Assembly (NCBI GenBank): GCA_030295235.1
Contig: AP026151.1
Span: forward strand, 1-64,000
Direction of reading: 5' to 3'
Origin: Fistulifera solaris
Lineage: Eukaryota; Bacillariophyta; Bacillariophyceae; Naviculales; Stauroneidaceae
Length of the DNA: 64,000 bases
A program made the position numbers and the translations under genes. The stretch's first letter is position 1; each line of letters begins with the position of its first letter. Under the pieces are notes generated by a model. The model saw only the letters and a program-made list of their open reading frames with translations, ran no database searches and had not been told where the DNA came from. This document shows, piece after piece, positions 11,453 through 61,284 of this stretch.

Positions 11453-12490
11453 TGAGGGTGCGGTGTCGTAATCTTATTTGCTGCGTCTGCGACGTCTTTC
11501 GTCTTGTCAATTATTGATAAGAGACTCTCTAGAGACTCCGTAGCGTCGTGTCTTCAAATGAGATCAAAAGCAAAGAAGACAGCCCCCGATGTAAGGTTAC
11601 AAGGAAGCCTCTTCAGAGTCTATATGCTCTATCCTGCTTTAACTTTCACATCCTTCATGTTTCATGTTCATTTGTCATCGTCATCGTCTCTTCATCAAAC
11701 TTCCGCCGAAAAGTCGGAACTGTTGCCGAGATAGGAAGCACTCGGAACCTCGGAACAAAAGAAAAAGAATGACTGTGACACGTCAATAATTGACGTGTCA
11801 CGTGTCACGTGTTAACCTTCATTTCTGTGCAATTTTTTAATTCGAAAAAGGAGTAATATCATATTTGCTAGGTTTCAAATTACGAAAAAGGCAAATAAAT
11901 AGTTAACAAATAGATAATTCAAAACATTGGATCTTTTTCGCTGAATCCGAGCAGGTTTTGTAGTAAATCACGTCTGAAAATGCAAACTCAACATTACACT
12001 ACTGTTTATTGGATCATAGTCGATAGTGGATAGTACACCATAAGAGAAACGAATTTCGAAGGAATAGTACCTGGTACCTGGTACTGGGTACTGACATTCT
12101 TCTTTACTCTTTTCAAGCAAAGAATTCGATACATTTAAGTTGGATACACATTCATGTTATGGTAAAAGCATCTGTTATTTTGTCGTTGGGCAAAAGGCCA
12201 AAGCACAAACTGACCGAGCGAACAGCTAAAAGCTAAACTTAATAGTAAAGTGGTGAAAGCAACAAACAACGGGCTACATGGTAACCCAGCCAAAGGCCAA
12301 ACACCAAACACTGCTCAGCGCTTGAAAACAAAAGGCCCCACTCGGAATAACCATCGAAAGGCCTCTATTGATGTTCTGTTGCTCATTGTAGTTAACAGCA
12401 AATCCTTCATAGCCTTTGTTATCTTGGTTTCTGGCTTATTTTCCCCTCGATTGTTGAATTTCAATTCATTGATTTTCGCACGATCTCAAC
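11453..12490. other. Divergent promoter region
   Basis: Spacer between the minus-strand RING gene and the plus-strand heat-shock factor. No coding sequence is supported. It contains the ACGT palindrome at 11775-11811 and a cluster of TACCTGGTA motifs at 12068-12091. Confidence 0.6.
11775..11811. promoter_or_regulatory. ACGT-core palindrome with paired CACGTG boxes
   Basis: GTGACACGTCAAT (11775-11787) and its exact reverse complement (11789-11801) flank a single A, a perfect 13-bp inverted repeat. It contains TGACGT/ACGTCA cores and is followed by two overlapping-phase CACGTG boxes at 11799-11804 and 11806-11811. Such cores are bound by bZIP and bHLH factors, and TGACGT is the core of the diatom CO2/cAMP-responsive element. 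It lies about 320 bp upstream of the RING start and 680 bp upstream of the heat-shock factor start. Confidence 0.6.
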
Positions 12491-13579
12491 ATGTCTGATT
12501 CGCTGCTTACCGGAGGACCCGAATCGTTGCGGTGCGGCTCTTCTGCACTTGGCATCGACGCGGCAAGCATTCTCCCTTTGATCGTGTCTCTCCAGATCAA
12601 TATCCAGCGTTTGCCCGTGAAAACGATGCTACGCTTTCCTTTCCGGAAAAGGTAGGCTAAAAAGGGCGTTTTAAGTTGTTAAGGAGGTTGTTTACTTCAT
12701 CGTTTACTCACTCTTTCATGCTGCAAATCGACTCAACGCAACACAATATCAAAGTTAATTATGATGCTCATGCACATCGAGCACGCGTGCATCTCGACGG
12801 GACGAAAACCCGAAGAAGAAGCGATTCATTGGACAAAATCGGGAGATGCTTTTGTTGTTCGCGATGAGAAGAGACTTAGTGCGGTCTGGCTTCGTGTCTT
12901 TTTCGGGGATACCAAGTACAGTTCGTTCACGCGCAAGCTCTATAGATGGTCGTTTCACAAAATTAGTCCGTCAGTCTACAATCTTGATCGTAGTCAAGTC
13001 ACGGTATTCGGAAGTATTAACTTTCATCGTGAGAAGAAGCATCTTGTCTTGCAAATGGAAAGTCAGACTGCCGCAAAGCAGCGGCGATCTATCATGGCAC
13101 AGCAGCGAAAGATCAAGCAACAGCAGCTTCTGAAAAACAAAGAAATCAAGACATCTTTCAACGCTGTCCCCGAGAAAGACCAGCAGACCAATTCGTCATC
13201 CGACACGTTACTTGATGGATTCGCGAAAGAGAGAGTGCCGAAGCCAGTAAATACGCAGTCTTCTTCCAATCGTTTCTCAACGCATGATCCGCATCATGAT
13301 ATGATGGAGAGACTACAGAAAGGTCTGGTTCTGGCCAACTTTCTCCGCGAAGGAGGTTATCAGGGATCGCTTTCGAGCTTGCAGCGTTTGCTAGAGCACA
13401 ACGGGACTCAGCACAGCCTTGACGCTGGTGTGAACGCCAGTTCAGCATCAATTGCGGACCAGCCATCACTCGCCATGCAGCTGTTGAAACAGAGAATTCA
13501 GCAGCAACAGGTGCAATACGAGCGTATGCAGATGCAAGCTTTGGCGGCAATGATTCGCAACCGCTTTGCTCAAGAATGA
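12491..13579 (+). CDS. Heat-shock-factor-type transcription factor
   Basis: Nuclear DNA-binding protein of the HSF family, which is greatly expanded in diatoms. I see a GT-AG intron at 12652-12754 that splits the DNA-binding domain as ...LSFPEK | LIMMLMHIEH. The rest of the domain follows: IHWTKSGDAFVVRD, LRVFFGDTKYSSFTRKLY, RWSFHKIS, then NFHREKKHLVLQMES. After the domain come Gln-rich helical segments (KIKQQQLLKNKEIK and LLKQRIQQQQVQYERMQMQA) where other HSFs have oligomerisation repeats. The start is uncertain: ATG 12491 is in a different frame from the spliced domain, so either a one-base indel lies near 12560 or the real start is in an undetected upstream exon. Confidence 0.85.
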
Positions 13580-14491
13580 GGTTTGCCCGACGAAGACCGG
13601 CTCTTCGTCGGTCAAGTCGGCATTATTCCGGCAGTAGGATAAGCTTTCTGTGTGCCTGCATGCTGGATTTGCCCCTCATGTTTTCTGCAGGGTCGCAGTT
13701 CCCGACTGATTTCGTTTCTCGTACAAAACGTGACTCCACGCAAACGATGGATCACCCGGGAACGGAATCAACGTCACAGAGACCTGCGCTCTTGCTAACC
13801 ATGGTGATTGAAACGATTTTTTCTCGAATGACTTCACGCTTTGGCGTGGACGACACTATGAGACAGGAATCGAGATCACCGACCCTTTGTGAAACGTGCG
13901 ACGGTGAATGTTGTTGGTATTCGTCACATGTTACTACTACGTTTTTCATTGATTAGCAACAACTTCGAATGCTGAAGCTATTCGATTGCAGGACATACCT
14001 TGACTGTTTTGTCGAATGACTTCATTCACATGTGTGTGACTGAACGAAATGACGGAGCCGTACAGTGTGCTTGTAAGCTATAGCCGAGCAAAACTTTACA
14101 TTCTATATAATAAATATTAAACATTTAATGTGTAAAAAGGCGATATTGAGAAGAACGAGGAACACTACAAGTACTTGCTGGAAATTTGATCTCTTACTTG
14201 TTTACAGGTCTGCGCTCTAAAAGCCACATGGTGTATCATGCGCAATCTCGTTTGTATTCTCGAAGTCTTCGCTTTGACTTTTCCAATTGGAACAATGCTC
14301 GTGCTCTTACTTCGTTACAGCGATTCTCCACAAGATCACGTGGCGAAACTTGCTTCCGCTTCGAAGGTTGCACGTCATGTTGTTCTTTGGGCGATGAGTG
14401 ATTGTCAGCAAAGTGCCCAGGCACGGAACCTCCGTCTGGTCTAACTCGACTTTTCGTCGAGGCTCCAAAGAACGACACTATTGGTACTGAT
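13580..14491. other. Spacer between convergent genes
   Basis: Presumably the 3' ends of the HSF gene and of the minus-strand gene. An open stretch at 14236-14478 on the minus strand (RARALFQLEKSKRRLREYK at its end) could be the frame-shifted C-terminus of the next gene. No other gene is supported. Confidence 0.5.
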
Positions 14492-15544
14492 CTACTCGCG
14501 AATCATCATTCGTCTTTTCGACGAGGGATGCAATACAATCCACGAAAGCGAGAGAGGTTCGTCGGGTGTCATTTCATTTTCTCGTCGACTTGGCAATAAG
14601 GGCTGGTTAGACGTATCTTTATCTGTAGTTCTGCCTTTCGATCTTCGTCCGGGAAACTCTAACATGGATTCGGAATTTCCCGTCTTAAGTTCGATCATGA
14701 GTTTATCATACCAGAGATGGGTAAGGTGATCTACCTCGATAGCTAACTCTTCCTCCTTCTTCTCTTCGTGAACAATCAGTTCTAAAGCTATTGGATCGTT
14801 TCCAACAGGCTCTTCTTCAACGCTATGTTCAAAATCTTTCAGTTGACGGTCTACTATCTTTCTTCGAGCTCTGAGTTTCTTGAAAAGCTCATGACTGAAG
14901 GGCAAAAGAGGAAGGCCAAAGCTATCCCTGGGAGGTGTCGAAGCTTGACTAGTACCACTAGATCCAGATTGAGGGCTCGCTGTCCCATGCGCAACGTTGT
15001 TAAGGAAACGTTCCGAGTCTTCATTCGCCCCAGCAATGTTCCTGTCGCTGAAAGAGTCCGAGGTTGAATGAGTTGTTGAGTGACTTGCATACATCGCATC
15101 GCTTCCATTAACGGAGAATACAGTATGCAACGCCGAGTAATGACTCGGAGGCGATGACAATGTTTCATTGTTAGATAATAGAGTGATCGATGAATCATCA
15201 CGGCGATCATCAAAGTCTTCCCACAGGTCTAGCGATATATTCAACAAGTCATCGTCCGGATTCGACAAGTCCATGTACTCTTCAGCTTTCGCAATGTCAA
15301 GCAGACTATTTCGGTATGATTTCGGATGATTCGCCGAAGTTCGCGTGCTGTATGTTCCGCTGCTAGTTGTGCTGTAACTGTTGTAGCTGTCGACACTTTT
15401 CATTTGATTCCCCCAAGTGGGTGCAGCAATTCCAACGAGACCCTCATTCTCGTTGCCCGTGACATTGACTGCAGTATCTCTTGCCGATTGTATCAATATC
15501 TGAGAAGGCGAAAGAAAGTAAGTTGGTTTCGTTTCTGCGTTCAT
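14492..15544 (-). CDS. Uncharacterised Ser/Thr-rich protein
   Basis: A 350-aa protein I do not recognise, with a normal ATG. The first 200 residues are polar and probably disordered (runs of S, T, N, D), with an acidic patch YMDLSNPDDDLLNISLDLWEDF cut here to its key pattern: DDDLLNISLDLW. A more ordered helical segment follows (LFKKLRARRKIVDRQLKDFE, then EELAIEVDHLTHLWYDKLMI). The Cys-free, Ser-rich character suggests a soluble regulatory protein. A one-base shift at the end would add about 75 basic residues. No membrane segment is seen. Confidence 0.6.
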   Translation of the reverse strand: MNAETKPTYFLSPSQILIQSARDTAVNVTGNENEGLVGIAAPTWGNQMKSVDSYNSYSTTSSGTYSTRTSANHPKSYRNSLLDIAKAEEYMDLSNPDDDLLNISLDLWEDFDDRRDDSSITLLSNNETLSSPPSHYSALHTVFSVNGSDAMYASHSTTHSTSDSFSDRNIAGANEDSERFLNNVAHGTASPQSGSSGTSQASTPPRDSFGLPLLPFSHELFKKLRARRKIVDRQLKDFEHSVEEEPVGNDPIALELIVHEEKKEEELAIEVDHLTHLWYDKLMIELKTGNSESMLEFPGRRSKGRTTDKDTSNQPLLPSRRENEMTPDEPLSLSWIVLHPSSKRRMMIRE

Positions 15545-16075
15545 TCTTTTAGCTGTTTAGGAGTCTTCCGTTCGTCTGTTGTCTAGGTTGATTTGCTCAG
15601 TGCGCCTTAAATTTGACGAATCGCGACTTTGCCACTTTCAGCTTTCAACGTAAGAAGATCGATTCAATAGAAGATCGATTGGATTGCTTTATCTTGAAAA
15701 GTCTCAATCACTGGCTTTTTCATGAGAGGAAGAGCAATAGCAACGGTGATGCGATGAAACAGAAAACAAAGCCGGCATAACAAACAGCGGTTGGATTTTG
15801 AAAAACAAGACTACTTGTGAGTAATACAGAGCTTCTCAGGTATCGCTGGTTAAGTAGCAAGCGGTACAAAAATAGGCTATGTGAAGAGGCGGAGCTTCGC
15901 AACGTACAAAAATACTTACAAGCCAAAGGAATTTACTTAGGTGAGTGGGTACACGCAACGTTTTCCGGATTCGGCCATCAGTTTCAGTCAAGGGTCAAGG
16001 GTAATAAAACACCACTGATTCGACTAGACACTCTAGACGGATGCAGTCATGCCTTAAAACCAACTATGTTATGAT
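15545..16075. other. Intergenic spacer
   Basis: Promoter side of the upstream minus-strand gene and terminator side of the PqiA-like gene. I see no supported gene; the short open frame at 15817-16074 resembles no known family. Confidence 0.5.
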
Positions 16076-18026
16076 CTAGTCACTCGACCTATCGACGTCT
16101 AGGACGAGACCGCCAAGCACTTTGGTCCAAAGATAGTCTATCTGATAATAGGGGTCATGATTGTAGCGTGTTGCGGCAGCGCTGTTGACGAAATATTGGA
16201 CGAACCCCGAAGAAATAGAATACGCAAGAAGAAGAAAAAATCCCGGACCCATTTCTCCATTGACGCCTAGAATGTCAGATCCTGCATCGCCTGCTAGACG
16301 ATTAATTAATGCATCGAATTTGTACTACCGACGCGGACGAAGCGTGAGAAAATTACAATGTTGTCAACAATGCGCGATCAAAACCGTACCTGAACAATAT
16401 AAACTCCCATTAACAATACGTCAACACTTGCAAATGTCCAAATCGAGTCGCCAAGCCGTAAGATCATGCTATTGGAAACAGCACCGAGCAATGCCAGCAT
16501 TTGTATCAAATGCACAACAAGAGGCGACACGACCACAAGGAGCAAGTACGCCATACATAGTGTCCACATGGCAGGTTCCGCGGAACTGTCACGCATCGCT
16601 TCGTCACTTAAAAGTTCCGTTCCTAAAGTGAAAACGTTGTAGCTTCTCTCGCAAACAACATCTCGTTGCTCTCCTTCGGTTGTTTGAAAACGCAATATTT
16701 CTGAAATCGACCCAACAACATAGAGAGCCATGCTCGTCGCCCATGAAAGCCCAACAAAATAGAGTGCAAACGTCACGCTACGACAAGAATGTCCGGGATT
16801 TGAAGAGTTGTACGCATTTTGAAATTGTAATGCAGCCAATAATGGTCTTTCGACGTCGGCCGTTTCTTGTGTCTCATGGTCGGCCTCCTTATTGTGTTCC
16901 TTCAACGACTCTTGATGCAAGGCTGCCATCCATTCAATGTGCCAAAACTCCCAGAAAGTGGCCACGAGAAATGCAATAATCGCTGGACGTGCTTCGCCAC
17001 GAATCTTAATCGTAGTTTCGCCTATCAACGCTTGGAGCCAAACCCCAACCAGAAGAATGAGAACCACCTTTCGAGCCATAGTCCTGTTAGACACGATGCA
17101 GCATTCATCAACCATTCCTTGCGATGCATACTTACGTAGACGTCAACGAGCGTGTATTTGCCCAGTCGCTTGAGCCATTTCAGCAACCTAGATCTTGTGT
17201 CAATCGAATGTGTCATCCAGGCAAACATGAGCAGAACGTTTTTGAGATACGGCCAAAGTCCCGAAAAGATCACAACGAGAAAGGCCAACAGCTTGGCGTC
17301 TCCATTCCACGCATCTTGCAAAGCGTTCAGAAACTTGATTTCGTACACTGGATAGTACTCAATAGGAGTTCCTTCTTGTTCTTTAGGATCAATGATTATG
17401 CAAGTATCACTTTGTTCTTCTTGTTCTCGACGACGATGACGGTACACATAACGCGCCGAAGAAAAGAATCCAGTGCAATTGTAAAAAACCTGTTGACAGG
17501 GAAGATTGCATGTTTGGCATTGATCTGATTGAGAATCTTGGGCACAGGCAAAGGCACATCCATTCTGCAATCCACACTGTGGCAAGACTGCAAAGCATTC
17601 TGCACATGCGGTCGAATAGCCGAAATTTTCAACGAAGCATTCTGTATTGCATTGCACATCAACAAGACAACCTGTTTGTTGCGAACAGAATGAATTGGTA
17701 ATGCTGCGATTCGCGGCTCCTCCCAGTGCATTCCAGATCTCTGTGTCTTTTAGAGTGCAAGTGCCCGTAGCATTATTTGTTGTGTTTGTATTTATATCGA
17801 CACGAGGCTGATTCGAATAAATGACACCCGAAACTCCCAAATGAGCGTACAGCATTAACGCCGCATTCAAAACCAGTGAAAGCGTTTGTAAATATCCCGT
17901 TCTCTGACTGTATTTTGAAGCCAAAGAAAAGGATGATGACAAGGACGAATCGTCCGTCCGAATATCATCGCTTCGTCGATTTTTCTGCTGCAAATCTTCA
18001 TTCATGTCGTCATTCGTTGCACTCAT
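16076..18026 (-). CDS. PqiA-like multi-pass membrane protein with luminal Cys-rich domain, introns
   Basis: Resembles the paraquat-inducible protein A family of membrane proteins, known in bacteria as parts of lipid-transport systems. A cytosolic polar N-terminus precedes TM1 (LQTLSLVLNAALMLYAHLGV). A domain of about 120 residues with some 18 cysteines follows (GCLVDVQCNTEC, ACAECF, CQTCNLPCQQVFYNC). Next is LLAFLVVIFSGLWPYLKNV and the family signature RLLKWLKRLGKYTLVDVY. A consensus intron (gtaagt, branch ctaac, cag) appears to end that exon near 17137. The second half has more membrane helices (VVLILLVGVWLQALIGETT, LYFVGLSWATSMALYVVG) and DSIWTFASVDVLLMGVYIV, a second signature-like segment. 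A last exon around 16281-16076 gives GVNGEMGPGFFLLLAYS, which fits the family's end. Exon phases disagree by one base at both junctions, so boundaries are approximate. Confidence 0.65.
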
Positions 18027-18466
18027 TCAGTCGCTCGACGCTAAAAAAATCAAAGGATGATTATAAATTAACAAAAAATAAATCATTTTTTGTTCTTGCC
18101 TCTTATTATCGAAAGAATGAAGGCGCCTTCGCACGTTGAGTACCAGGTATGACTATATAAATCGAAGTATAGGCTCGACTTTTCCACGACTAAATATCAT
18201 TCATGAAGTTATGATGCAAGACTCATGACCGAAAAGCAGTCGTGGGAACGGTTCAACCAACACTTTGGACCATAGTACTGGTTGTCGACAAGGAACTGCT
18301 GTCGAAGTAGCAGCGCTCGACATTTTTTTGCTGCTTTCATTCACCATTCATCAGCAACATCATCAATTGCTGCTGCTTACAAACTATTCATTCGATCTCT
18401 TTCCCGTCATTTCATTTCATTTTTTTATCAAAACTGCAACACGTAAACAGAAAGAGGATATTTAAG
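18027..18466. other. Spacer with a TACCAGGTA site and a hairpin motif
   Basis: 5' side of the PqiA-like gene and 3' side of the fasciclin gene. It holds TACCAGGTA at 18141-18149 and one copy of the dispersed hairpin motif GACTG...CAGTC(G/T)TGG at 18221-18245. Confidence 0.5.
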
Positions 18467-20152
18467 TCAATGCAATTGGGGAAGAAGGACTTGATCGATC
18501 GTAAAGACATTGGCATTGCAAGCTCGACTGTTTTCGCTGACAATCCGCGGCAAAGCATCCCAATCGTTTCCTTGTCCCATTTGAAAGATAGAGTCATTGA
18601 CGCAGAGCGTATGCGTATTCTTTCCGTTCACCATTCTCAAATGCTCGTCGCAAACGAGATCCGTTGAATATAAAACATCCTCAACGACAAAATGAAACAA
18701 GAGAATTTTAAGAGGAAGAGAATGCGTTGAATCGAATGTACTTCCAAGACTCGCAAAGGCGTCATTGTTTGGAGCGAAAACAGTCCATTCATGATCTTGT
18801 AAAATCGATGCGAGGTCGCTCTCCGTCAAAATAGCGCAAAAGGTCGACAAATCGTCCGTGTTACACAGCGTCTCGACTGCGATGTTGTGAGAGATAATAC
18901 AAGACGGTCAATCCGAGGCATTCTATTATTTCCAACTTCCATCGTGCAAGGATCAATGCTACGTACCAACGGTTTCACACTCATCTTGAGTCTGCTCTTC
19001 GGGATCGCTAAGGCTTGACGAATTTTCGAGATTTGGAAGGATAACTTGGTTCGTCAAGTGCAGGAGGCCGGAACACGCTTGGATGTCAGGAAAAACGATT
19101 TGAGGCTGCAATTTCTCGGCATTGGCCTCGCCCCGTTTGGAAGATCGTGTCACCATCACACATTGTAGTCGTATTAACGCCATTCGTCATGGCGATGGAT
19201 ACATTGCACTGCAAATCAGAAGAAGATACAACTCCTTCCGTTAAATGATAAAGAAGAACGTTGGTGAGCAGTTCCGTTTCGGAAGCAATGCTGTCTAGTA
19301 AACCGCCAAGAGCCGTGAAAGCTTCGTTGATGGGCGCAAATAATGTCCATGATCCTTCGGCTAAGACATTATCGAGGCCAAGCTGCGTAATCAGTGTGCA
19401 AAGTGTCGACAATAGACTCGAGTCGCATACCATGTCGGCTATTTGATTGAAAAGAAATATGATGTGAGAGATTATGTGGTCGTAGATTCAGCGCAATGCG
19501 TAGATGCAGACGCACCGATGGTTTTGCAATCTGGAACAGTTTGAGGCACCGGTTCGAAAGTCGCTGGTAGGATCACTTCATCTATGATATGAAGGACAGA
19601 ATTACACGTGTTGATGTTGCTGGCGACAATTTGGGGCAGATTGTCCGCACTATTACCGTCTCCGACTTGGTATGTTGTATCGTCTTGACATACAGTGCTA
19701 CTGGTTTGTCCATTCGCCATTTGTATACTGCTTCCGCGAAAGCAAATCGTCGACGAATAGCAATCCGTCAAATGCATGAAACAGAATCAAATCGGTTAAC
19801 ACGTCAGTGTTGTTGAAAATACTCCCGAGATTTTCTCCTATGTTGAAAAACGCATTGTTAGTTGGTACAAAGATGGTCCAGTTGCCCTCGTTCAAAGCAG
19901 ATTCGAGGCCAGTTTGCGTGATGGAAGCAAAGTGTCGATAGAGAGCTGACGCGACAGACAAGTTCACCTGTCGAAAACATAGAAAGCGGAATGAGAAAAT
20001 AGGTAAGCTCACACCCGTCACGTGCTGTCGTCCTTACCGACACTTAAGCACTGCGCCCTTGCAATAGAAAGAATTGAGGCCGTACTCAGAAGATAGCAGA
20101 ACATCATGACTGTGCTTTTGATCCCCAACATGATGCGAAAAGTGCAAGCCAT
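18467..20152 (-). CDS. Secreted protein with three fasciclin (FAS1) domains, one per exon
   Basis: Secreted or surface adhesion-type protein, about 480 aa. Exon 1 (20152-20038) encodes only the signal peptide (MFCYLLSTASILSIARAQC). Exons 2 (19967-19516), 3 (19438-18967) and 4 (18876-18467) each encode one FAS1 domain, with introns of 70, 77 and 90 bp, all in phase 1. Each domain shows L-x-STLC-x-I at the start, then WT(I/L/V)FAP-N-(D/E)AF, LLYHL or equivalent, a short Cys pair and the closing H-x-(I/V)-D-x-V-(I/L)-LP motif (IIDEVILP, LTNQVILP, TIDQVLLP). Linkers end in CKTI or CETV just before each junction. Frame changes of one base occur within exon 2 (at least two) and exon 3 (one). Uniform phase and domain-per-exon layout suggest growth by exon duplication. 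Confidence 0.85.
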
Positions 20153-20559
20153 GTCGACTGAAAATGTTTGTTGACATGTGTGAAGTCTCGATCCAATCTT
20201 GTGTCGATTGGTGTTTCGCAGATACGTGCTTTCGGAGTGGTGATTCGTGCAGAATAAAAATGGGCATAACATGCCGAGGACATTCGTTTTTGTGTTTTAC
20301 GTCTCATGAAAGCTCCACATGGCACCCTGTCGCAGAATCTCTTCGACTACTACACTATGCCCCATCACTACGTCGAGATATCAAAGAATGCTAAGGCCGA
20401 TAGAAAACGGAGAGACATGCCATCGAAAGCAATTCGCATGGATTGGAGTGCCACTGGCATTGGAAAGATAGAGAATCTGATTTGAAAAGAATTCAACGTT
20501 GCAGTTAATCCTAGTTATCGATGAGAATTTTATAAAACGGAAGTATGACCCGATCGACG

Positions 20560-21743: not shown

Positions 21744-22573
21744 TCTTCAATCTAAAGTCAGAAAACCAAAGTCAAACTAAAGTCTCAGTGGTATTTGGTC
21801 ACTGATAACTGTTGAATGGCTGGTGACGTGACTTTGACATTTGACATGGAACCTGGAATTGGGATACCTGGTACAGTACCTGGAATTTATTTGTTTGAGG
21901 TTTGAGGCTTGAGGAAATCAACCATCAATCACAGAGTACAACCGTCTAGTCACAACGAGGCATAAGGCATAAGTCACTGACTGTTTTGCTTTATAGAAGA
22001 GGAATACAGCAAAGTGTATAGTAAACAAACACACAAGACACAATTCAGAAACCCTGGAATATTGTTCGTAGTCTCTCTGTCTCTACGATCTACGATAAGA
22101 CGATAAATGACCAACAGTACCATTGATTTGCCCAACAATTTACGTTACCGACAATCGTACATCGCTGGTCGCTGTTCAAAGTTCGACGTTCAAAATTGAT
22201 CGTATTACATATTACATTGCGACGCTTTTCGTATTATATAGAGGGAGAAACTTAAGCCCTCACAGTACGAGGGTTAAGTCTAGTTTACGAATGTCTTGTT
22301 TGTTCACGATTCATCTTGGATTAGTACTTATGTAAAGTGTTCAGTTTTATCGCTGGGCCAAGGGCAGTTGTTGGCATTTATTACTTCAAAAGATGGCGAG
22401 TGGCGAGTGCAATAGTTTCGAACGTTTCCAGCTCGTGAAAATCGCGTTGCCTTAGTTTTCGGCAGCTCCCCCCAAGGACCCAATCGTTGCGCAATTATGA
22501 TCAAAGTTATTTAGAGCAGGATCTCCATGAACTCATGGAAGAGAAACATTGCTATTTCATTTGACGGCTGAAC
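21744..22573. other. Intergenic spacer
   Basis: No gene is supported. It contains TACCTGGTA at 21865-21873 followed by a second GTACCTGG. Many short direct duplications of 6-10 bp are visible. Confidence 0.5.
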
Positions 22574-23287: not shown

Positions 23288-23450
23288 GTTTCATAGGAAA
23301 GCTAATACTTCAAACATTCAACAATTTTGTTTCTTAATCAATGTAACTTAACTCAAAAGGCATCACAGATCACGCGTGCTGAAGCTGCGTCGCACATTCC
23401 TCATAAGTCTGATTTAATACAACTGACATTCGTTAGACTACCCAGTCAGT

Positions 23451-24921: not shown

Positions 24922-24929
24922 GTTTTGAC

Positions 24930-25500
24930 TATAGTTCGTCATAAACATGTTTATGAAAAATCGTATGCAGTTTATGCAAGTTTATGCATGTTCATGCAAG
25001 TTTATTCAGTTTATTGTCTGTCCCTCGTCCCGCTCGCACCAGAAGAGGTTATCCCGTCTTTCAATGATTTTAGACATATCTAAGTATGTTAAATTGCTCC
25101 ACATTTGATTGGTCAACAACTATTTTGATGGTCGCTTTGAATGTTGTACGAATTTATGCACCTTTTCAACTTTTTTAACATCATATCTATATTGAGCGGA
25201 CTTTTGGTTGATCAGCAACCCGGCTAACCAAAGCACAACGAATAATTTTTAGGGCATTCAAGCTTTCCAAGTTGTTTGTGTTGTCAGTGTTTAGCTGGTT
25301 CAATGCCCAGGGCTTAAAAAACCATGATTAGGTTGCTCTGTAATAATTCACGCATGCAAACAAAGCACGCACAAACCCGTACCACGGACAGACTCTAAAA
25401 GCATAAACATGTTTATGAAAAATCGTAAACGAATAAACACGTTTATAAACCGTTTAAACAGTTTATGTTTATTGACCAAATAAACACGTGCCGAACTATA
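24930..25500. mobile_element. Non-autonomous hAT-like DNA transposon (MITE), 571 bp
   Basis: Termini TATAGTTCGTC (24930) and the inverse of TATAGTTCGGC (ending 25500) form an 11-bp terminal inverted repeat with one mismatch. An 8-bp target duplication GTTTTGAC flanks it exactly (24922-24929 and 25501-25508). Both ends carry subterminal motifs, GTTTATGCA-type repeats on the left and AATAAACACG-type on the right. A 26-bp direct repeat with the palindrome ATAAACATGTTTAT occurs near 24940 and 25402. No transposase is encoded. An 8-bp duplication points to hAT or a related superfamily; the terminal TATAG is not the commonest hAT end. Confidence 0.85.
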
Positions 25501-25585
25501 GTTTTGACTACAATGCACAATAAGTATTTTTATTGTCCAAGAGTTTACCAGTAGGGTAAGGTTTCCGACAAACGAGCATGCCACG

Positions 25586-26171: not shown

Positions 26172-26179
26172 ATGCCACG

Positions 26180-38760: not shown

Positions 38761-39587
38761 TCTCAACGAGGCGTATTCATGCACATACTAAAGGGTAACG
38801 TTTTCACTCTTGAATTGCATTCTTATTCCATTATTCACAAAAATAGTTTGAATTTTTATTTGGACTTTATTCACTTTGTTTTATTATCAATACCTGGTAA
38901 TTGTTGCAGTCGCAAGTCGATGGAATGCAATGAGAGATGAGATCGCGTTCTTCGTCTTCCTCCCACCATAAGTGAGGTATTAAGGTTGAGGGTTCAGGGT
39001 TTAAATTTGGGCGAATACAACTACTATCTCAGTCTACCGTACCTGGTACTGAGTGCAGTTGTGACACATAATCTATGACCCTTATCCCTTATCAAAAGGA
39101 CCTAAGCTTACATTGATCAAATAGATACTGATTTGTGACCTTTGTCGGTTTGTCGGTACCTTATTCAAGATGCTGGGGAATGATTTCCACCATCCCTTCT
39201 TTAAGTGCAGTAGGAACTTATCACAAAAGTTACTATTGCCCTCCCTAGCTATTAAGGTACTTACTGATCACGGGTGCGATGGATTTCTGCTTTTTCTTGG
39301 ATACTTCTTGATTCAATTATTCAATTTTCACTATCAGGATTCCAAGTGCCAAGGCTTTTTATTCCTTTCATCTCCCTTTCCCACTTCCTGCTTCCTGCAT
39401 CCCACTTCGATCGACGACGCATCTTCGTCGTACCAGGTACCGGTATCGGTACCGGTACCTGGTATTCACTTCATGATGCGTTTTCCACCCAACATTTTCA
39501 AATTTGATAAAAATTCTTACCTTTGTCGCTCGCAAATCATTGAGAGAAATCGGCACATGAAGCATCAAACTCTTTGAAACCCAAGCA
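38761..39587. other. Spacer with four TACC(W)GGTA motifs
   Basis: Intergenic region with TACCTGGTA at 38891, 39040 and 39456 and TACCAGGTA at 39431; the last two flank a GGTATCGGTACCGGTA array. This is the densest cluster in the window. No coding sequence is supported. Confidence 0.6.
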
Positions 39588-40087: not shown

Positions 40088-40642
40088 ACAGCAGCATTCT
40101 TGACCGCCACTATGTTTACTCAATGATGCCGTCTGTTTTCGGAAAGAATAGCAGGCGCTTTCAACATAATGTACTACGTAAAAGAGAGGATTGTTGACTA
40201 AAAAGAAGTAGTTTTAATTGATGCATTTTATAGGATAGTTCTGAGATCCGACTAGTTGTCTCCAGACTAGTGACTGAAAAAGGTGACTGAAAATCCGTCT
40301 CTGTAAGACAATGGTACAGATGATTCTAGAGAGAGAGTACCAGTACGGTACCTGGTACAGTTCGAAGTCCGCGTCAACAGTTACTTAGGCCCTTGAACTT
40401 TGGAAAGAAAAATGAGGGTGCCGTTTGAATTGCCCGTGCTGCTCGGCGCGCCGCACGTCTTCGAAACGAAATTCGCCCCCGCTTTGTGTTCTTTGATTGC
40501 TTTGATTACCGTCGTCGACCATGATCATCCTTCAAGCCTTCGCAAACGAAAGTATCCTTGCCTACTTACAGCTTGTTCACTCATTAGAAAAGAAATCTAT
40601 GGTGCATCGTTCTTCCAAGCTTTCTTACAGCCACAAAATTGA
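40088..40642. other. Intergenic spacer
   Basis: It contains a GTACCAGTACGGTACCTGGT cluster at 40337 with an exact TACCTGGTA at 40349. Possible 5' leader of the next gene; no independent gene supported. Confidence 0.5.
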
Positions 40643-51288: not shown

Positions 51289-54200
51289 TCACTCCTCTTT
51301 GTCGTTGCAGTATTTATTGGCATCTTTCTTTTCAAACATGGCCATGATGGAATCTAAATCGGAAGCACTGTGAATGTGACGACTGGCCAATCTGTTGTTG
51401 GTAGACTCTGGCAAAGCCATCTTCGTCGGGTCTACATCTTCTACCGGTAGAGAAGGCATCATCGACGTCATTCCTTTGTCACCAGACATCACGTTCAAAT
51501 TGACCGGCAATGGTGGACTCTTGTAACGCATATCCAACTTTTTCGACAATTCTAATCCGAACGAAGCGACTTCGGCTTTGCTGGCTAAGACGGCACCCAC
51601 ATCTTGCCAAGCTTCGCGCTGTCATTTCGATAGGCATAATAATTATGGAGTTGGTAAAATGGGAAGAAAGAACAAAAACAAGCAAACAATCAATCAAAAC
51701 ACACAATCAACTTACATGAACCAGGATTGTAATGTATTCTACGATTAGCAGAACAAACCATAAAGCGCGTCAGAAAAGAAATGGATGTGCATGTACATGA
51801 AGGACTCCTGCACTCCAACACATATTTATCATTAGGAGAGAGAGAGTCGAACGTACGTACCGATGTAACCTTGATCGGCCATGATTTGTGTGGGCCGAAA
51901 TGCGCCGAAATTGGCCCATTCACGTGGCCGGGCTCGCACAAATTTGCGCAAGGCTTGCTGGAATACCTCAACTTTCTCGTATTCTACTTCCACGGAAAAT
52001 TTGAAAAATACAAATACCTGGGCGTTCGGAGAACGTGCCATGTTCAAGATGCGTGAACTCGCCATGGAGGAATTCGACAAAGTGGCACGCTCGTTCGTTA
52101 CTCCGTAGATGAGGGTCGTATTAAACAATGTGACGTCCTGCAAAATATGGATAAAAAGGATGAATTGAAGTGGAGCGACTACACAAGACACGGATGACGA
52201 GGACACCACTGCAACGTACCTTAACAATCCAACCAGGGCTTCCGTCGGAACTCGTGTCTACTTGGACATTCGAAACATGAATTCGATCACCAATGTCATA
52301 GGGACGCTGCAACAAGATAAATAACCAACCTTCAAACATCTTACTCATGGCCGAACCAATTACAAAGGCAAATGCAAGAATGAACGAAGACATCGAAATG
52401 AACAGTGCCATGGGACTCACTCCGGATTGACTCAACAAGATACAACCCAGCGTCACGTAGAAAATGACATTGATCACATTTTCGAAGGCGCGGTCGACCT
52501 TCTCACTGTTGTGCACCGCTGCCCGTAACAGCTTCGCTTCCCTGTAAACTGCGTCCACGCTCTTGACAAACTCCAATAGTGTCAGATAACCTTCACGGTC
52601 CGGACGCAACAGTCGAATCAAATCCTTCAGTAGTTGTGGGTCGATTTCGCCGGTTTCGTCCACCGTCGCCAACGCCAAGACGTCAAAGCGGAGAACGCTT
52701 GTATCGGGGTTAAACACATTGAGTCGGTGATACACTTCTTGCGACGAAATAATGGTGCTTTCGCGTGTCGACGTGTCACCCCAAGCTATACTGAACAGGA
52801 ATCGATTGTCGAGGAAACTCAGGCTCTGGCGGAACTGGAGAATGGCATCAATCGAAATGGAATCTTCGACACCCATTTCTTTTTCGGGATCTTCCCACGC
52901 ACCGAGGTATTCGTTGATACGATTACGATCGGCCTGACTCAAATCTCGTGGATCGTTAGCCTCGATAACGCGTCCATTGAATTGGTCGAGAGAATCGGGG
53001 GCTGGAGCAGTGATATCCTGTGCATTGTGTAGATCTTTTTCGGATTCGGTGCGAAGCAAACCAAAGTATTGTTCTTCACTAAACCCATAGTTCTGGAGAG
53101 CAATCACACCGCTTTGATTTTTCTTGCGCCGTGCACTACGACGCGACAAATCTCGTGCGACAAAAGCGACACGCCCGAGCAAGAGAATCTTTTTCATAAG
53201 TTTGGCCAAATCTTCCGAGTAGTTTCGATAGATCTTACGACCGAGCATGAATCCCACCCAAACACGTTTGACAGAGATTGCCAATCCCACACCGATGCCC
53301 ATGATCAAAAGACGACGATACCAATCTTCTCCAGGAATACCGCCACTGGGATTTGCTTCTGTGAAAATGGACAAATAGCTCTCGAAATAGTACGTCTGCC
53401 ATTGACCCCAGTGCTGCGCAAAATCTGTATTGCCTTGCAACAACGCTAAATTCCACAAAGACCAAAAGAACATGTGGAACGGTATTCCCCGCGACTGGAT
53501 CACAAACAAGGTAAAGAGCTGTCCAAAGGCACTGACAAAGATCCGTGTACTGACGCAACAGAAATCAATAATGATTGCTTGGCACATTTTGGCGAGACTC
53601 AGGGTAATGATTTGTCGGACACAAACAAAGAGAATCCACCAACTCGCCGATGCCGTTTTCGCATCGAACTGCTCTCCGTCGGTATTGACGAGAATGGTGG
53701 TATTCGTCTCAAAATCATATACCAGTCGTGAGTCCTCCTCAATACGGCCCGTCGGAGGATTTCCCGCAAGATAAAACAGAATGAACGATATTCCAATCGC
53801 GGGTAAAACGACGAGCATCAAAGTCCACAAGTAGGCTCGCAATGCACCTTTTCGCTGTTGCGTGAACTCCTTGGCGTCACTGACCAAACTTTGTCCAGCT
53901 TGTTTGATGGCTTCTTTCTTGGTCTTTTTGTTGCTATTCTTGTTCTTTGTCTTCTTGTTCTTGGATTTATCATTGGAGTCGGTTCCCCTTGGGCCACCCA
54001 GATTTCCACTACTACTACTACTACTACTACCCCGCTGACCTTCTTCCATTTCCATCAAGGCCGAATTGGAAGCAATGGGCGCCAAAGGTGTCTTTAAATC
54101 TCGCTCTTCGTCTTCAGAAAGCATTGATTTCATTTGCAAGGTCGTTTTCAAGGCACCCCAATGCTTATTCGCCTGTGCTTTGGCCTCCTCTTTTCCGCAT

Positions 54201-55242
54201 CCGTTTTGCCACGAAACACCAAGGTAGCACTTTGATCGAACGGTGATGTAGCCGCTGTGGTGTGAATAGGAGGATCATTCTCCAAGTCATCATCCGAATC
54301 GGACGAATCATCATCGGATACATCCCGACTCCCATGTTCCTCCATACGATGCATCGCCGCCATGGCTTGTGTCAATCCAAACAAGGTAGATTCCATCGTT
54401 TTAGTGCGGCGGTGTTGAATATCCGAGGAAGCCGAGTGCTTGGAGGCGGCGGTGGAACTGATTTTGGACGCCTTGGTTGATGATGTATTCGAACGTGCAT
54501 CGGACGAGGTATCTTTCGTGGGCGTGTTTGCTTGAAAAGCAGCGGTATCATAGGGTACATTTTGCAAGATGCGTGTCCCTGAATCAGTCGAAAAGCCTCG
54601 ATCTCTTTGATTGGCCCGTTTTTCCATGGCGTACACAATGGATTCAATCGCCTCGACTTCATGATTGCCACCGCGGACGTCAGCCAAAGAAACTTGCGTA
54701 CGTACATCTCTTTTCGGTAATGGTGGTTCAATGTCGGGAAGCGATGGGGGTGGAGGAGGAGGCGAAGAAGAGTTAAGAGAAGGATTGTTCGATCGCGGAG
54801 GAGAGATGCCGTATCGTTGCGTGGTTGCATTGGAGGCTGGTGTAAGAGGACTGTAGGGTTCTTCCTGATCCTGTATTTGTGCGTTTTTGACCATGGCGAT
54901 CCATCGATCGGTTGTATTGGAAGTTGAAGCGCGCGAAGTGTCATTAATGAGTGAAGGACGTTTGAGCAGCGGTGAAGTATTGAGACTTTGTGCAGTCTGT
55001 GGACTCATCATTGCGGGCTGTTGTTGCTGTTGCTGTGGTTGCTGCCATTGCTGATCACCCCACGACAACTGTCGACCTTTTGCTATTTTCGGCTTTGAGA
55101 GCGAACTTACAAGCGGTTCATCTTCTTTTTCTTTTTCTTCGCTTCCGGTCGTTGTAGCTCGAGCGACGGAGGGGTTGGTGGGAGGTTTTCCTCCTCGATT
55201 CTCACAACCGCTGTTGTTCATCTTTGTTGTTTCCGAATTCAT
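51289..55242 (-). CDS. MscS-type mechanosensitive channel with EF-hand-like segment, copy 1, one apparent frameshift
   Basis: 1,217-aa eukaryotic MscS channel. Exons: 55242-52220, 52137-51861, 51738-51716 (a 23-nt microexon) and 51618-51289. The frame closes exactly if one base is added in the T-run at 54191-54194 (plus strand). A disordered N-terminus (about 420 aa) has KIAKGRQLSWGDQQ, a kinase-site-like motif. Four or so membrane helices follow, including LWTLMLVVLPAIGISFILFY and FGQLFTLFVIQS. Next is an EF-hand-like pair (TVDETGEID, RPDREGYLTLLEF), then the pore helix (SPMALFISMSSFILAFAFVI), the beta-domain start RPYDIGDRIHVSN and the cytosolic VFVFFKFSVEVEYEKVEVF. The C-terminus carries RHIHSASDLDSIMAMFEK. 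The plan resembles fission-yeast Msy1/Msy2, calcium-linked osmotic channels. Confidence 0.9.
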
Positions 55243-55870
55243 CGCTGTTTCCCTTGCCTTCTCTATTATCTAATCTGTAAATGATTCACTGAATGTCAAT
55301 GAATCATTAAGCCTTCCTTGTCTTGTTTACCAGGTAGTATACTCCGTAATAAGTAACAATTGTTTTGATTTTATGAGCTCTCGTGTGATTTCTTCATATG
55401 GTTTGCTTTTTCGTCATTATTTTTCGACGACGAAAATCGGAAATCATAACAAGATCTTTGGAGACCTGATACAAATCAGTACACTGATTCCGGGAATCGA
55501 ACGAAACACGATAGAACATCGATCCAAATAGAATTCAGCATTTCTTGGAATGACGACCAGATTGTACACTGTGGACGTGCTGACGTTCAGCGACGACGGG
55601 TCGAGTAATAGGTAACTTTTGTTGGATGTTGGATTTACAGATTTCAGTCGATAAAAACTACTGAGTAGACTATATTATATAAAAAAATACTGGAGTATAA
55701 AGAGGAGGTTGAAAAAATTAACAAGAGGGTCTCTGTCTGTTGCCTTGAATCTTATTTGCCAAGTTTCGATCGATTCAATACGCGAGGCAGACCAGCGACC
55801 AGCGTTTGTTGTAGTTTCTCTAGCTAGAGTAGAGATTTAGACTTCGACGAGAGAGAGAGAGAGACAATCA
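55243..55870. other. Intergenic spacer
   Basis: Promoter of channel copy 1 and 3' end of copy 2. TACCAGGTA at 55328-55336; GAGAGAGAGAGA microsatellite at 55850-55864. Confidence 0.5.
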
Positions 55871-58800
55871 TTACGTCGCATTTTTCTCAAACAAGGCCAT
55901 GATGGAATCTAAATCGGAAGCACTGTGAATGTGACGACCAGCTGGTCTATTGGAGGAGGAGGTTTCATGCGTCTCTATTTTCGTCGATTCGAAATCCATC
56001 AGCGGTCCCACTCCCTTGTCACCAGACATCATGTTCAAATTGACAGGCAATGGTGGACTCTTGTAACGCATATCCAACTTTTTCGACAATTCTAATCCGA
56101 ACGAAGCGACTTCGGCTTTGCTAGTGTTCACGGCGCCTACATTTTGCCAAGATTCGCGCTGGATTGCAGAATAACATTCGAGGAATGAGACGTCGTCAGC
56201 GAAAAAATAATCGGCAACAAGAAAGCGCAAACGATTAACTTACGTGAACCAAGATTGTAATGTACTCTACCGCACAACCAAAGGAAGGAATAACCCATGT
56301 GAGATACCAAGCTTTAAGATTGCGACATTAGACATTAGGTCCTTCGTGTCGAGTTGCACGTACCAATGTAGCCAAGGTCGGCCATGATCTTCGTAGGCCG
56401 AAAGGCCGCAAAATTCGCCCATTCACGCGGCCGCGCACGCACAAATTTGCGCAAGGCTTGCTGAAATACCTCAACTTTCTCGTATTCTACTTCCACGGAA
56501 AATTTGAAAAACACAAACACTTGCGCGTTGGGAGACCGTGCCATGTTCAGGATCCGTGAACTCGCCATAGAGGAATTCGACAAAGTGGCACGCTCGTTGG
56601 TTGCACCGTACACGAGAGTCGTGTTGAACAACGTGACGTCCTAAAGAATATGGATAAAAAGGGTGAATTGAAGTGGAGCGACTACACAAGACACGGATGA
56701 CGAGGACACCACTGCAACGTACCTTAACAATCCAACCAGGGCTTCCGTCGGAACTCGTGTCTACTTGGACATTCGAAACATGAATTCGATCACCAATGTC
56801 ATAGGGACGCTGCAACAAGATAAATAACCAGCCTTCAAACATCTTACTCATGGCCGAACCAATTACAAAGGCAAATGCAAGAATGAACGAAGACATCGAA
56901 ATGAACAGTGCCATGGGACTCACTCCGGATTGACTCAACAAGATACAACCCAGCGTCACGTAGAAAATGACATTGATCACATTTTCGAAGGCGCGGTCGA
57001 CCTTCTCACTGTTGTGCACCGCTGCCCGTAACAGCTTCGCTTCCCTGTAAACTGCGTCCACGCTCTTGACAAACTCCAATAGTGTCAGATAACCTTCACG
57101 GTCCGGACGCAACAGTCGAATCAAATCCTTCAGTAGTTGTGGGTCGATTTCGCCGGTTTCGTCCACCGTCGCCAACGCCAAGACGTCAAACCGGAGAACG
57201 CTTGTATCGGGGTTAAACACATTTAGACGGTGATACACTTCTTGCGACGAAATAATGGTGCTTTCGCGTGTCGACGTGTCACCCCAAGCTATACTGAACA
57301 AGAATCGACTGTCGAGGAAACTGAGGCTTTGTCGAAATTGAAGGATGGCATCAATGGAGATAGATTCCTCGACACCCATTTGTTTTTCGGGATCTTCCCA
57401 CGCACCGAGGTATTCGTTGATACGATTGCGATCGGCCTGACTCAAGTCTCGTGGGTCGTTCACCTCGATAACGCGCCCCATGAGTTGGTCGAGCGAATCG
57501 GGGGCTGGTGCAGTGATATCCTGTGCATTATTCAGGTTTTCTTCGGATCCTGTACGAAGCAATCCGTTGTATTGCTCCTCGCTAAACCCGTAGTTCTGGA
57601 GAGAAATCGTGCCGGTGAAGTTTTTCTTGCGTCTCGTGCTCCGTCGCGAGAGATCACGCGCGACAAAGGCGACACGGCCTAGCAGAAGAATCTTTTTCAT
57701 AAGTTTGGCCAAATCTTCCGAGTAGTTTCGATAGATCTTACGACCGAGCATGAATCCCACCCAAACACGTTTGACAGAGATTGCCAATCCCACACCGATG
57801 CCCATGATCAGAAGACGACGATACCAATCTTCTCCAGGAATACCGCCACTGGGATTTGCTTGTGTGAAGATCGATAGATAGTTTTCGAAGTAGTACGTCT
57901 GCCACTGCCCCCAGTGTTTTGCGAAATCTGTATTGCCTTGCAACAACGCCAGATCCCATAACGACCAAAAGAACATGTGAAACGGTACACCACGCGACTG
58001 AATGATGAACAAGGTGAAGAACTGTCCAAAAGTGTTGACAAAGATCCGTGTACTGACGCAGAAGAAATCAATAATAATCGTTTGACACATTTTGGCGAGA
58101 CTTAATGTGATGATCTGTCGAACACAAAGAAAAAGAATCCACCAACTCGCCGATGCTGTTTTCGCATCAAATTCTTCTCCATCGGTATTGACAAGAATGG
58201 TGGTATTGGTTTCGAAGTCATATACTAACTTCGAATCATCCTCAATCCGACCCGTCGGAGGATTTCCTGCCAAGTAAAACAGAATGAAGGAAATCCCAAT
58301 GGCTGGAACAACTAGAAGCATCAACGTCCACAAGTACGCCCGCAATGCACTTTTGCGCTGTTGCGTAAACTCCCTCGCATCGCTCACCAAACCCTGTCCT
58401 GCTTGCTGCATGGCCTTTTTCTTTGCCTTCGCTTTCGTCTTGCCCTTTCTTTTGTCCGAATTCTTGGAGCTATCATTTTCATTCGTACGACTTGATTCAC
58501 CCAGCGCACCACTGGTTTGGCCTTCTTCTATATCAGTCAAAGCCGAGTTGGAGGGAATGGGTGACAAGGGCGTTTTCAGATCTTTCTCTTCATTTTCGGA
58601 AAGTACCGTTTTCATTTGCAAGGTTTTCTTTAGAGCACCCCAGTGCTTATGAGCCTGTAACTTGGCTGCTTCCTTTTCCTCGTCCGATTTGCCCCGATAT
58701 ACTAACGTCGCACTTTGGTCGAAATGTGAAGGCATTGCGGATGTACTTAGATGGTGAATATCATCGTCTTCGCCATTATCCGAACCATCGTCACTCCCTT

Positions 58801-59656
58801 CTTCCATACGATGCATCGCTGCCATGGCTTGTGTCAATCCAAATAAAGTCGACTCCATGGTCTTGTTGCGACGGTGCATGTCCGAAGTATGTGATTGTTT
58901 CGAGGCCGCTGCTGAACTAATTTTCGAGGCTTTGGATGTCGTTGAACGTGTATCTGAAGCCTTTTCCGGAGGTGACTGCTGTTGTTGAAAGGCCGTCGCA
59001 TCGTCCGGTACATTTTGCAAAATACGAGTCCCCGAATCCACCGAAAAGCCACGATCTCGTTGTTGATTTTGATGAGCCAGTTTCTCCATGGCGTACACAA
59101 TGTTTTCGATCGCTTCCGCTTCGTGATTCCCGCCGCGCACATCCGCCAGCGACACATGCGTTTGCATCTCTCGTTTCGGTGGGGGAGGCTCAATGTTGGG
59201 GAGTAAGGGAGGTCGATCCGATGGGGGGCGCTGTGTTGTCATGTACGTCGAAGCCGGTGTCAAAGGACTGTAAGGTTCGTCTTCTTCTTGTACTTGTGCA
59301 TTCTTCACCATTGAAATCCATCGATCGGCTGTATTGAAGGTAGAAGCGCGTGTTGCATCATTCACTGCTACAGGACGGGGCGGAGTTGTTGTTGTTGTTG
59401 TTGTTGCTGTTGTTGGAAGACGATTCACCGTCTCTTGACTCATGGGAATCGGCGGTACTGGTTGCGATGACTGTTGCTGTTGATCCCCCCACGACAGCTG
59501 CCGATCTTTCGCTGTTTTCGGTTTCGAGAGAGACGTAACAAGCGCCTCTTCTTCGTCATTTCCGACAGTTGTAGCTCGAGGAACTGGGTTGGTAGGAGGT
59601 TTTCCTCCTCCTCCTTCATGGCCGTCTTTATTCGTCTTTGTCGTTTCCGAGCTCAT
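55871..59656 (-). CDS. MscS-type mechanosensitive channel with EF-hand-like segment, copy 2
   Basis: 1,173 aa, intact. Exons: 59656-56723, 56640-56364, 56266-56244 (23-nt microexon) and 56158-55871; they total 3,522 nt with no shift. Same plan as copy 1: TAKDRQLSWGDQQ N-terminal motif, LMLLVVPAIGISFILFYLAG, KRVWVGFMLGRKIYRNYSED, EF-hand-like RPDREGYLTLLEF, pore SPMALFISMSSFILAF, RPYDIGDRI, and C-terminal RHIHSASDLDSIMALFEK. Reading on past 56723 stays open through the intron by chance, so the end of the first exon is set by the paralogues and by GTACGT. Stretches that include the intron are almost identical to copy 1 while others are much more diverged. Confidence 0.93.
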
Positions 59657-61284
59657 CTCTTTCGCTTTCTCTAATCTAAGTTTGTAAGGCTTGCTTTAAT
59701 TGTTCTATTGTTTGTTTAATGAATTCACTGAACGTCAATGAATCTTGCATTGTGTTGCTTATCTAGTTACTTTTATGAGTGGGCTCTCGGGTTTCCATGT
59801 TGGTTGCGTGATGTTGCGCCTAAAACTCCGACGAAAACGAGATCCGTTGAGACTGGATACAATCTGTACACGGATTCCGCGAATGGAAGAAACACGACAG
59901 ACATCGATCCAAATGGAATCCAGGAACGGATTGGAATGCCGATCAAATTGTAGGAAAAGGACAGGCTGACGTGCGACTGGTTATCGATTATTCCGATAAA
60001 TAGATGAGTCTTGCCAAGTTTTCTCAACAAAATCCTCAAATACCTGGTACTGTACTGGTACATGAGACCGATGACCGATCACTCGTCATCGAGACTGACC
60101 TAAAGCCCGAAATTTCTTTTTTTTCCTAGCCCTAACTTTTCAGACGATAGAAACGCCCTCTCTTAGAGAAGGAAAAAATGCCAAGACTTACGTAGACAAT
60201 TGAAGCGATCCATCTTTCATCCTCATTTTTTGATTTTGTATTCGAACTATTGTCGGTTGTTGTCTCTTCAAATCCATTTGCAATGGTGGTAAATCCCATG
60301 ATGGCATTGTCGGCATAATTGTCTGAAGAATGGGATGATGATAAGTGTCGTACGAGGCCTACGTGAAATACGCGTAGACATACGACGCGTTGCATCTGTC
60401 GTGTGATCAACGTTTTATACGCGCATTGATAACCATTGATGTTGCTGGGAATACCACAATGCAGTTGAAGAATGTAGTTATGACAGCCATGGCAAAGAGC
60501 AAAGAGACGCAATAATTGGTGCGGTGGAATGACAGCGATATCCGGGGTCCCCTCTGTCGATAAATTTCCCTACGAGACCTACGTGGAACTCACGTAGACT
60601 TTCGAAGTGTTTTGCTTTTCATCGTGCCATGATCCCTTTAAATACGAATTAGTGTGACTTATTGTTTGAAAATAAAAGCAATTAATTTGGCGCAAACTAG
60701 ACTACTACGTACAATGACAGTTCGAGGCAAACACACCCCAAAATGAGCCAGGTCGCAAATTTAGATTATCCGGGTCAGCCTACGGCGATAAATTTCCTAC
60801 GAGCGCTACCTGGTAGCATATTTCATTTTTTCAGTTGTTTTTCATGAAACTTTCGCTTTTGTTTCGATTGTTGCCTGGTAGCGTTGATGACAGGGTTGAC
60901 ATGCGTTTTGAAGGAGAGGAACCATGACGTAGTCTATGTTGTTCTATAAGGTGTCAAAGTTTGAACCTATTAACGAACACAAGCGTTCTTATCGAGCATT
61001 TGGTTCCTTATGGCATGATGATTGCCGTAATACAGTTCAAATACGAAATTGGCGGACCGAGAAAGAGAGGCCTTGGGGGGATGAGATGTACAGGCGCACG
61101 TCCTGTCTTTGGCACAAGACGTGCTTCCCATTAAAACTTGTGCGCTAAAGAAATGAGAATTAGTTGCCGACGATCGCGAAATCTGAACTCGTTTCATCTT
61201 CATCTGATTCCGTCATACTCGTAGTAATGAAGGACGAAAACAATCGAATTCACGAAGCTAAAAAAGACAAGAAGCACGGTTTCA
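59657..61284. other. Intergenic spacer between channel copies 2 and 3
   Basis: 1.6 kb without a supported gene. TACCTGGTA at 60041 and 60807. A 30-bp repeat at 60351-60380 and 60571-60600 contains the hairpin CTACGTG-gaact-CACGTAG in the second copy. Confidence 0.5.

Follow-up and report, generated by a model that had tools for sequence, protein, structure and literature searches.

The nonamer TACC(A/T)GGTA (TACCWGGTA), which recurs in the first 64,000 bases of contig AP026151.1 of the diatom Fistulifera solaris (assembly GCA_030295235.1; contig 25, bases 1–64000, of an assembly of 51.7 Mb and 61 contigs; hereafter the window), is probably the excision scar of a TA-targeting, cut-and-paste transposon of the Tc1/mariner type, and its likeliest source is a family of elements with CCATTCGGGTCAAATGAG ends. 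The original prediction, made from the window sequence, had preferred a dimeric protein-binding site and had listed the relic of a small repeat among other options. As described below, the word is real, genome-wide and restricted to non-coding DNA; the binding site is the part of that prediction for which we find no support.

An element of this kind would sit at a duplicated TA; on excision, a few bases of each of its ends would remain and the break would be joined. The CCA of one end together with the GG of the other, or CC together with TGG, would thus be left between the TAs as CCWGG, and an unoccupied TA would lengthen by 7 bp to TA-CCWGG-TA. If one further base were lost, TA-CCGG-TA, TA-CCAG-TA or TA-CTGG-TA would result, and repeated visits to one TA would build runs of units. 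Such scars would persist in non-coding DNA and be purged from exons, because an addition of 7 bp shifts the reading frame. The proposed scar resembles the footprints of Sleeping Beauty and mariner in that the TA target is duplicated and terminal bases of the element are left between the two TAs, and its A/T centre resembles the CAG/CTG footprint of Sleeping Beauty, TACWGTA, in which A and T are alternatives at the centre. It differs from them in keeping five bases (CCWGG) rather than three, in being present in thousands of copies in one genome and in that we infer its source, the CCATTCGGGTCAAATGAG-ended elements, together with the details of end joining. In published accounts of mariner and Sleeping Beauty, a nick in the non-transferred strand lies 3 nt within the element and produces the 3-nt 3' overhangs from which the footprint arises (PMC7827188, PMC4505599, PMC8151067); for Sleeping Beauty the footprint is given as CAG (PMC8151067).

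Distribution of TACCWGGTA

All twelve exact copies reported for the window are present at the coordinates given, far above the number in dinucleotide-shuffled sequence (average 0.16, largest shuffle 2). They were said to lie outside every gene, and indeed none of the 12 overlaps a listed open reading frame (ORF) of at least 150 amino acids or a segment called coding. Across the whole genome, the word occurs 4365 times and its reversed control 328 times, a 13-fold excess. The form with C or G at the centre, TACCSGGTA, is hardly raised (349 versus 286), and the zero-spacer form TACCGGTA occurs 2766 times against 877.

For finer analysis, we used a sample of 264 kb consisting of the window and two 100-kb stretches (C1 and C2, 200–300 kb each), in which coding sequence was called with a simple self-trained model, trained on the same three stretches. 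The called coding sequence holds none of the 37 sites at either switch penalty; an earlier, overfitted order-4 model had placed 2 of the 37 (C1:225136 and C2:206081) inside coding sequence. The 105 kb of called non-coding DNA contain 36 copies where an order-3 Markov model predicts 0.62, and the 159 kb of coding DNA contain 0. When only loci separated by more than 1 kb are scored, TACCWGGTA is the top 9-mer of the sampled non-coding DNA (29 loci). The C/G-centred form is seen there 3 times versus 0.34 expected, though it is near its control genome-wide. The claimed extension to GTACCWGGTAC is real without being general: G precedes 20 of 40 sites, C follows 24 of 40, and both bases are found at 13 of 40. 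A literature search on diatoms that covered the T-centred spelling, TACCTGGTA, found no published occurrence, and among the papers listed for six spellings of the word none had a title concerning diatoms.

These properties could also be those of a dimeric transcription factor binding site in promoters with fast turnover between the subgenomes, an explanation that we consider improbable. It would account for a palindrome that is clustered and found only in non-coding DNA, and for the position of the sites relative to genes, with convergent genes on either side of 2 of 37 sites, compared with 10% of positions drawn at random from non-coding DNA, and divergent genes on either side of 15 of 37, compared with 26%, differences whose significance was not computed. 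The skew in gene orientation is compatible with promoters and with insertion into open chromatin alike. A related word, TACCGGTA, is, in addition, a predicted promoter motif in the oomycetes Phytophthora (P. infestans M94; PMC3597505) and Plasmopara (P. halstedii streme-5; PMC10031896), and motif-9 of Seidl et al., given as GTACCGGTA in PMC10031896, is an inverted repeat found upstream of 1,284 genes (PMC3520976). The string TACCWGGTA was not found in the main text of these three papers. The oomycete motif equals the zero-spacer form that is also enriched in F. solaris; unlike it, the W form in F. solaris behaves as an insertion. Against a binding site, one-mismatch variants of TACCWGGTA are barely enriched, about twofold in the non-coding sample (29 seen, ∼15 expected), so that the word is stricter than expected of such a site; the comparison of homoeologous DNA also bears on this point.

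Comparison of homoeologous DNA

The genome of F. solaris is allodiploid, with 42 homoeologous chromosome pairs and a G+C content of ∼45% according to PMC5935921; that of the window is 45.6%. A 25-base primer published for F. solaris (PMC13276009) has a single, exact match in the assembly. A search for light-harvesting proteins (PF00504) found genes paired at similar places on C1 and C2, C13 and C14, C19 and C20, C36 and C37, and others. The homoeolog of the window is C26, and C1:217.7–300 kb is matched by C2:200–282 kb in collinear blocks of 77–94% identity, with 85% agreement over aligned non-coding bases.

In the C1/C2 region, none of 21 sites was identical at the aligned place in the homoeolog, compared with ∼20% of all non-coding 9-mers, and a copy was found within 12 bp for 4 of 21 sites compared with 24 of 116 random 9-mers. 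A conservation no better than that of random 9-mers argues against the binding site of the original prediction, as do the several sites that are clean 7-bp insertions duplicating TA, a kind of difference unlike an origin by point mutation. Regulation by the W form is judged a minor possibility. Low conservation alone does not single out TACCWGGTA, because three other dispersed motifs were little or no better conserved in the same 12-bp test (4/15, 2/13 and 4/12). What distinguishes the word is the shape of the difference between homoeologs, an insertion, rather than lack of conservation. Of the 14 non-coding copies of the zero-spacer form TACCGGTA, 6 (three pairs) recur within 12 bp in the homoeolog; unlike the W form, three copies occupy matching positions in the two homoeologs (C1:246365, 264938 and 265091, with their C2 counterparts), and this form may include real, older sites.

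We then compared sites with other TA-bounded words (TA-N5-TA) as controls. Forty sites had sufficient flanking sequence, and the homoeolog was located for 36 of them; 18 of these 36 lay inside an insertion relative to the homoeolog, compared with 44 of 375 controls (p = 1.8e-7). The difference persisted at flank identities of at least 0.5 (9/22 versus 32/320, p = 3e-4), at least 0.6 (4/13 versus 22/258, p = 0.026) and at least 0.7 (2/5 versus 8/167, p = 0.028), all of these p values being optimistic because neighbours in the same run, and homoeologous pairs seen from both sides, count separately. Site flanks aligned worse than control flanks (12/36 versus 235/375 over the score limit). Among those over the limit, deleting CCWGGTA raised the alignment score at 3 of 12 sites compared with 7 of 235 controls; 8 of the 12 were ties and one aligned better with the full site.

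The cleanest sites have the anatomy of a Tc1/mariner footprint: three are exact 7-bp insertions of CCAGGTA at a TA, one is a 14-bp insertion and one a 32-bp run. At window 18141–18149 (TACCAGGTA), CCAGGTA is inserted at GTA/TGAC, giving GTTGAGTA-CCAGGTA-TGAC compared with GTTGAGTATGAC in C26. Similarly, C2:286790 reads ATCGTA-CCAGGTA-TCTTG compared with ATCGTATCTTG in its homoeolog, and C2:209140 reads GGGTA-CCAGGTA-TCTTTG compared with GGGTATCTTTG. The 14-bp insertion, at C2:228393, consists of two units. The long run, at window 39431–39464, reads TA-CCAGG-TA-CCGG-TA-TCGG-TA-CCGG-TA-CCTGG-TA and carries two sites (39431 and 39456); its 32 inserted bases (39433–39464; CCAGGTA, CCGGTA, TCGGTA, CCGGTA, CCTGGTA) stand at a single TA in C26 (TTCGTCGTATTCAC). 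Of 186 clean non-coding insertions of at least 3 bp, 20 were flanked by TA, and 3 of the 5 TA-flanked clean insertions of 7 bp were CCAGGTA. From this comparison of two homoeologs, we infer a gain rather than a loss of 7 bp.

Runs of units, and three neighbouring pairs exactly 7 bp apart among the ∼100 places listed, could instead mean that short TA-bounded units were duplicated locally, or multiplied by slippage, with no transposon involved. We regard this as highly improbable, because at window 18141 and C2:286790 a single clean difference stands opposite a shorter allele that lacks any CCWGG unit from which to copy.

A candidate source element

A scan of the 264-kb sample for exact 14-base inverted repeats starting at TA gave four hits: two in a minisatellite, one at window 24942–25415 and one, at C1:207345–209380, that is element-like. 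The last spans 2036 bp, has perfect 25-bp terminal repeats (TACCATTCGGGTCAAATGAGTTTCT, TA included) beginning TA/CCA, and contains open-frame pieces, one of which carries a DDE-like domain. It belongs to a family whose ends read TA-CCATTCGGGTCAAATGAG and whose members are mostly ∼2.0 kb long. Genome-wide, 38 such ends were found within 3 mismatches compared with 0 for the reversed control, and the 20 exact ends (over 20 bp; control, 0) pair into 10 elements, of which five are 2035–2036 bp, one 2027 bp, two 791 bp, one 2750 bp and one 7903 bp. Three further pairs of ends with 2–3 mismatches lie on C5, C32 and C38. All 12 elements read carry TA at each end, although TA formed part of the search patterns; a clean empty site was not obtained for any intact element. 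The flank of a second element, at C1:2587240, enters another repeat.

The family resembles Tc1/mariner/IS630 transposons with a DD39D-like transposase in having terminal inverted repeats, TA ends, 39 residues between the two presumed catalytic aspartates of a 254-amino-acid transposase piece, and weak matches of this piece to IS630 and DDE_3 profiles. It differs from them in that these profile scores are below the curated cut-offs (IS630-family NF033545, E 1.1e-4; DDE_3, E 0.0024). The piece is 100% identical in seven copies and broken in an eighth (C23), and comparison of two parts of the element between two copies gave identities of 98.6 and 99.2%. No relative was found for the piece in PDB, and the N-terminal piece of the element gave a profile match at chance level only. 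A search of the genome for the DDE_3 family found nothing, but the same search also misses the present element (E 0.0024); a search for DDE_1 likewise found nothing, as it did in the control genomes.

One distant relative of the transposase piece, at 26% identity over 132 columns, is encoded by a 324-amino-acid ORF on the minus strand within C31:500401–504400, which matches HTH_Tnp_Tc3_2 (E 2.3e-4) and IS630 (E 7.1e-6), both below the curated cut-offs. No convincing exact terminal repeat was found within 4 kb of this Tc1/mariner-like ORF, which may represent a domesticated gene or a remnant.

Units bounded by TA

To relate element and scar, we counted units between two TAs in the sampled non-coding DNA (seen/expected). 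The CCWGG unit (36/0.6) was followed by CCGG (18/1.1), CCAG or CTGG (15/4.1), CCG or CGG (15/9.8) and CG (33/19.5); units not predicted by CCA/TGG ends, CAGG or CCTG, were seen 4 times versus 1.8 expected. The order of units matches prefixes of CCA joined to suffixes of TGG, and supports CCA...TGG ends over CCAGG ends, with the reservation that these numbers are small.

The main competitor is a different TA-targeting transposon with ends 5'-CCAGG or 5'-CCTGG, whose 5-nt overhangs would pair with a central A:A or T:T mismatch that is repaired to A or T. Such an element would account at once for the A/T centre and the uniformity of the scar, much as for the footprint of Sleeping Beauty, and would explain the CCGG unit as loss of the mismatched base. 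We consider it rather unlikely. It does not predict the excess, again in small numbers, of CCAG/CTGG over CAGG/CCTG; overhangs of 5 nt are longer than those of mariner and Sleeping Beauty, which are described as 3 nt (PMC7827188); and no exact 14-base inverted repeat beginning TACCWGG was found in the 264 kb scanned of 51.7 Mb, a scan that a rare element would escape.

Other features of the window and the sampled stretches

Further sites of the window compare with C26 as follows. At 12068–12090, sites 12068 and 12075 form a run of three 7-bp units (TA-CCTGG-TA-CCTGG-TA-CTGGG-TA), a 21-bp insertion relative to C26. Nearby, the word at 12275–12283, TACATGGTA, corresponds to TACCTGGTA in C26 (C26:13110), which has an extra 33-bp insertion at its TA; this is probably an old scar common to both homoeologs with one base changed. 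TACCTGGTA also lies at 21865–21873, in a 25-bp insertion that repeats ACCTGGAATT as well, and at 38891–38899, in a 16-bp insertion. Site 40349 is part of the run TA-CCAG-TA-CGG-TA-CCTGG-TA (40338–40357) within a 27-bp insertion that is partly a GA repeat, and TACCAGGTA at 55328–55336 lies in a 24-bp insertion whose flanks align poorly. For TACCTGGTA at 60807–60815, counted as an exact copy, the homoeologous place was not located.

The window is a chromosome end, with CCCTAA telomeric repeats at about 1–148. No RNA gene was found in it at the Rfam gathering score, and no transfer RNA. A stretch of ∼65–75 bp at 18204–18277, which had no Rfam match in a scan of the window, has 16 further matches in the genome at 77–84% identity, several of them 217–240 bp apart on C5, C23, C27 and C38. 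The inverted repeat at 24942–25415 (14 bases starting TAAACATGTTTATG, 474 bp span, TA at both ends) may be a small element or may have arisen by chance. Three stretches, at about 51313–52963, 55871–57466 and 61666–62826, match one piece of C26 (47.9–49.5 kb); by these matches, the window carries a local duplicated family.

Other enriched words were examined in the sample. TGGTCCAGAA and CCCATATTTT were rejected as dispersed words, being tandem arrays (C1:239.8–240.8 kb and C2:214.9–215.5 kb). The minisatellite-like array at C1:239766–240770 has units with TTCTGGACCA ∼53 bp apart, and in that at C2:214965–215489 CCCATATTTT recurs mostly 30–41 bp apart; neither is found in the homoeologous 100-kb stretch. 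Two further words are dispersed in non-coding DNA, CATGACTGAA (15 copies of the 10-mer; CATGACTGA, 12 loci) and CCACGACTG (15 copies, 11 loci), and are possible regulatory motifs. The relic of a small repeat with shared flanks was likewise set aside for TACCWGGTA itself, as the flanks of the sites look unrelated by eye.

Discussion

Several observations weigh against excision scars of the CCATTCGGGTCAAATGAG-ended family. Half of the sites compared (18/36) are not inside an insertion. In the window, TACCTGGTA at 39040–39048 aligns without insertion to TAACTGGTA in the homoeolog (8 of 9 bases the same), and the run TA-CCTGG-TA-CTG-TA-CTGG-TA at 60041–60060, with site 60041, aligns without a gap, with agreement at 5 of 9 bases. 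The sites C1:209723 and C2:191922, which form one pair, are identical in both homoeologs, and 20 of 25 clean 7-bp non-coding insertions have no TA flanks. The usual mariner form, TA-CCA-TA or TA-TGG-TA, is not enriched (12 versus 11.4 expected), and neither is full retention, TACCATGGTA (69 versus 53 genome-wide); accordingly, either joining regularly drops exactly one of six bases, or the source is another element, such as one with CCWGG ends. The ratio of scars to sources is also large, with ∼4000 excess copies compared with ∼13 elements with paired ends (the 10 exact elements and those on C5, C32 and C38). This would correspond to ∼300 excisions per surviving copy, a number that a rapidly dividing cell could plausibly reach. 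At the 12 elements, G before or C after TA is found at 7 of 24 positions compared with 44 of 80 at scars, a bias that may stem from neighbouring units in runs. Finally, other TA-bounded units are enriched that a CCA-ended element does not explain, TA-CTACG-TA (11/0.58) and TA-CTCCG-TA (7/0.55). These two units are dispersed over C1, C2 and the window and could be scars of other TA-targeting elements.

Overall, the most over-represented dispersed 9-mer of the sampled non-coding DNA would pass a screen for promoter motifs as a strong dimeric site, yet the evidence favours scars. If this is true, scar counts would measure past transposition, could be dated between the subgenomes and would correct motif discovery in diatoms. 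A comparable origin, or a protein in common, might also be considered for the oomycete motif TACCGGTA, itself identified by its over-representation. We suggest, tentatively, that this clonal diatom genome may hold ∼4000 countable scars of one mariner-like family, far above its few intact copies, and may thus act as a genome-wide event recorder, datable against the homoeologous subgenome, that has seeded beside genes thousands of uniform palindromes, which proteins could adopt as binding sites.

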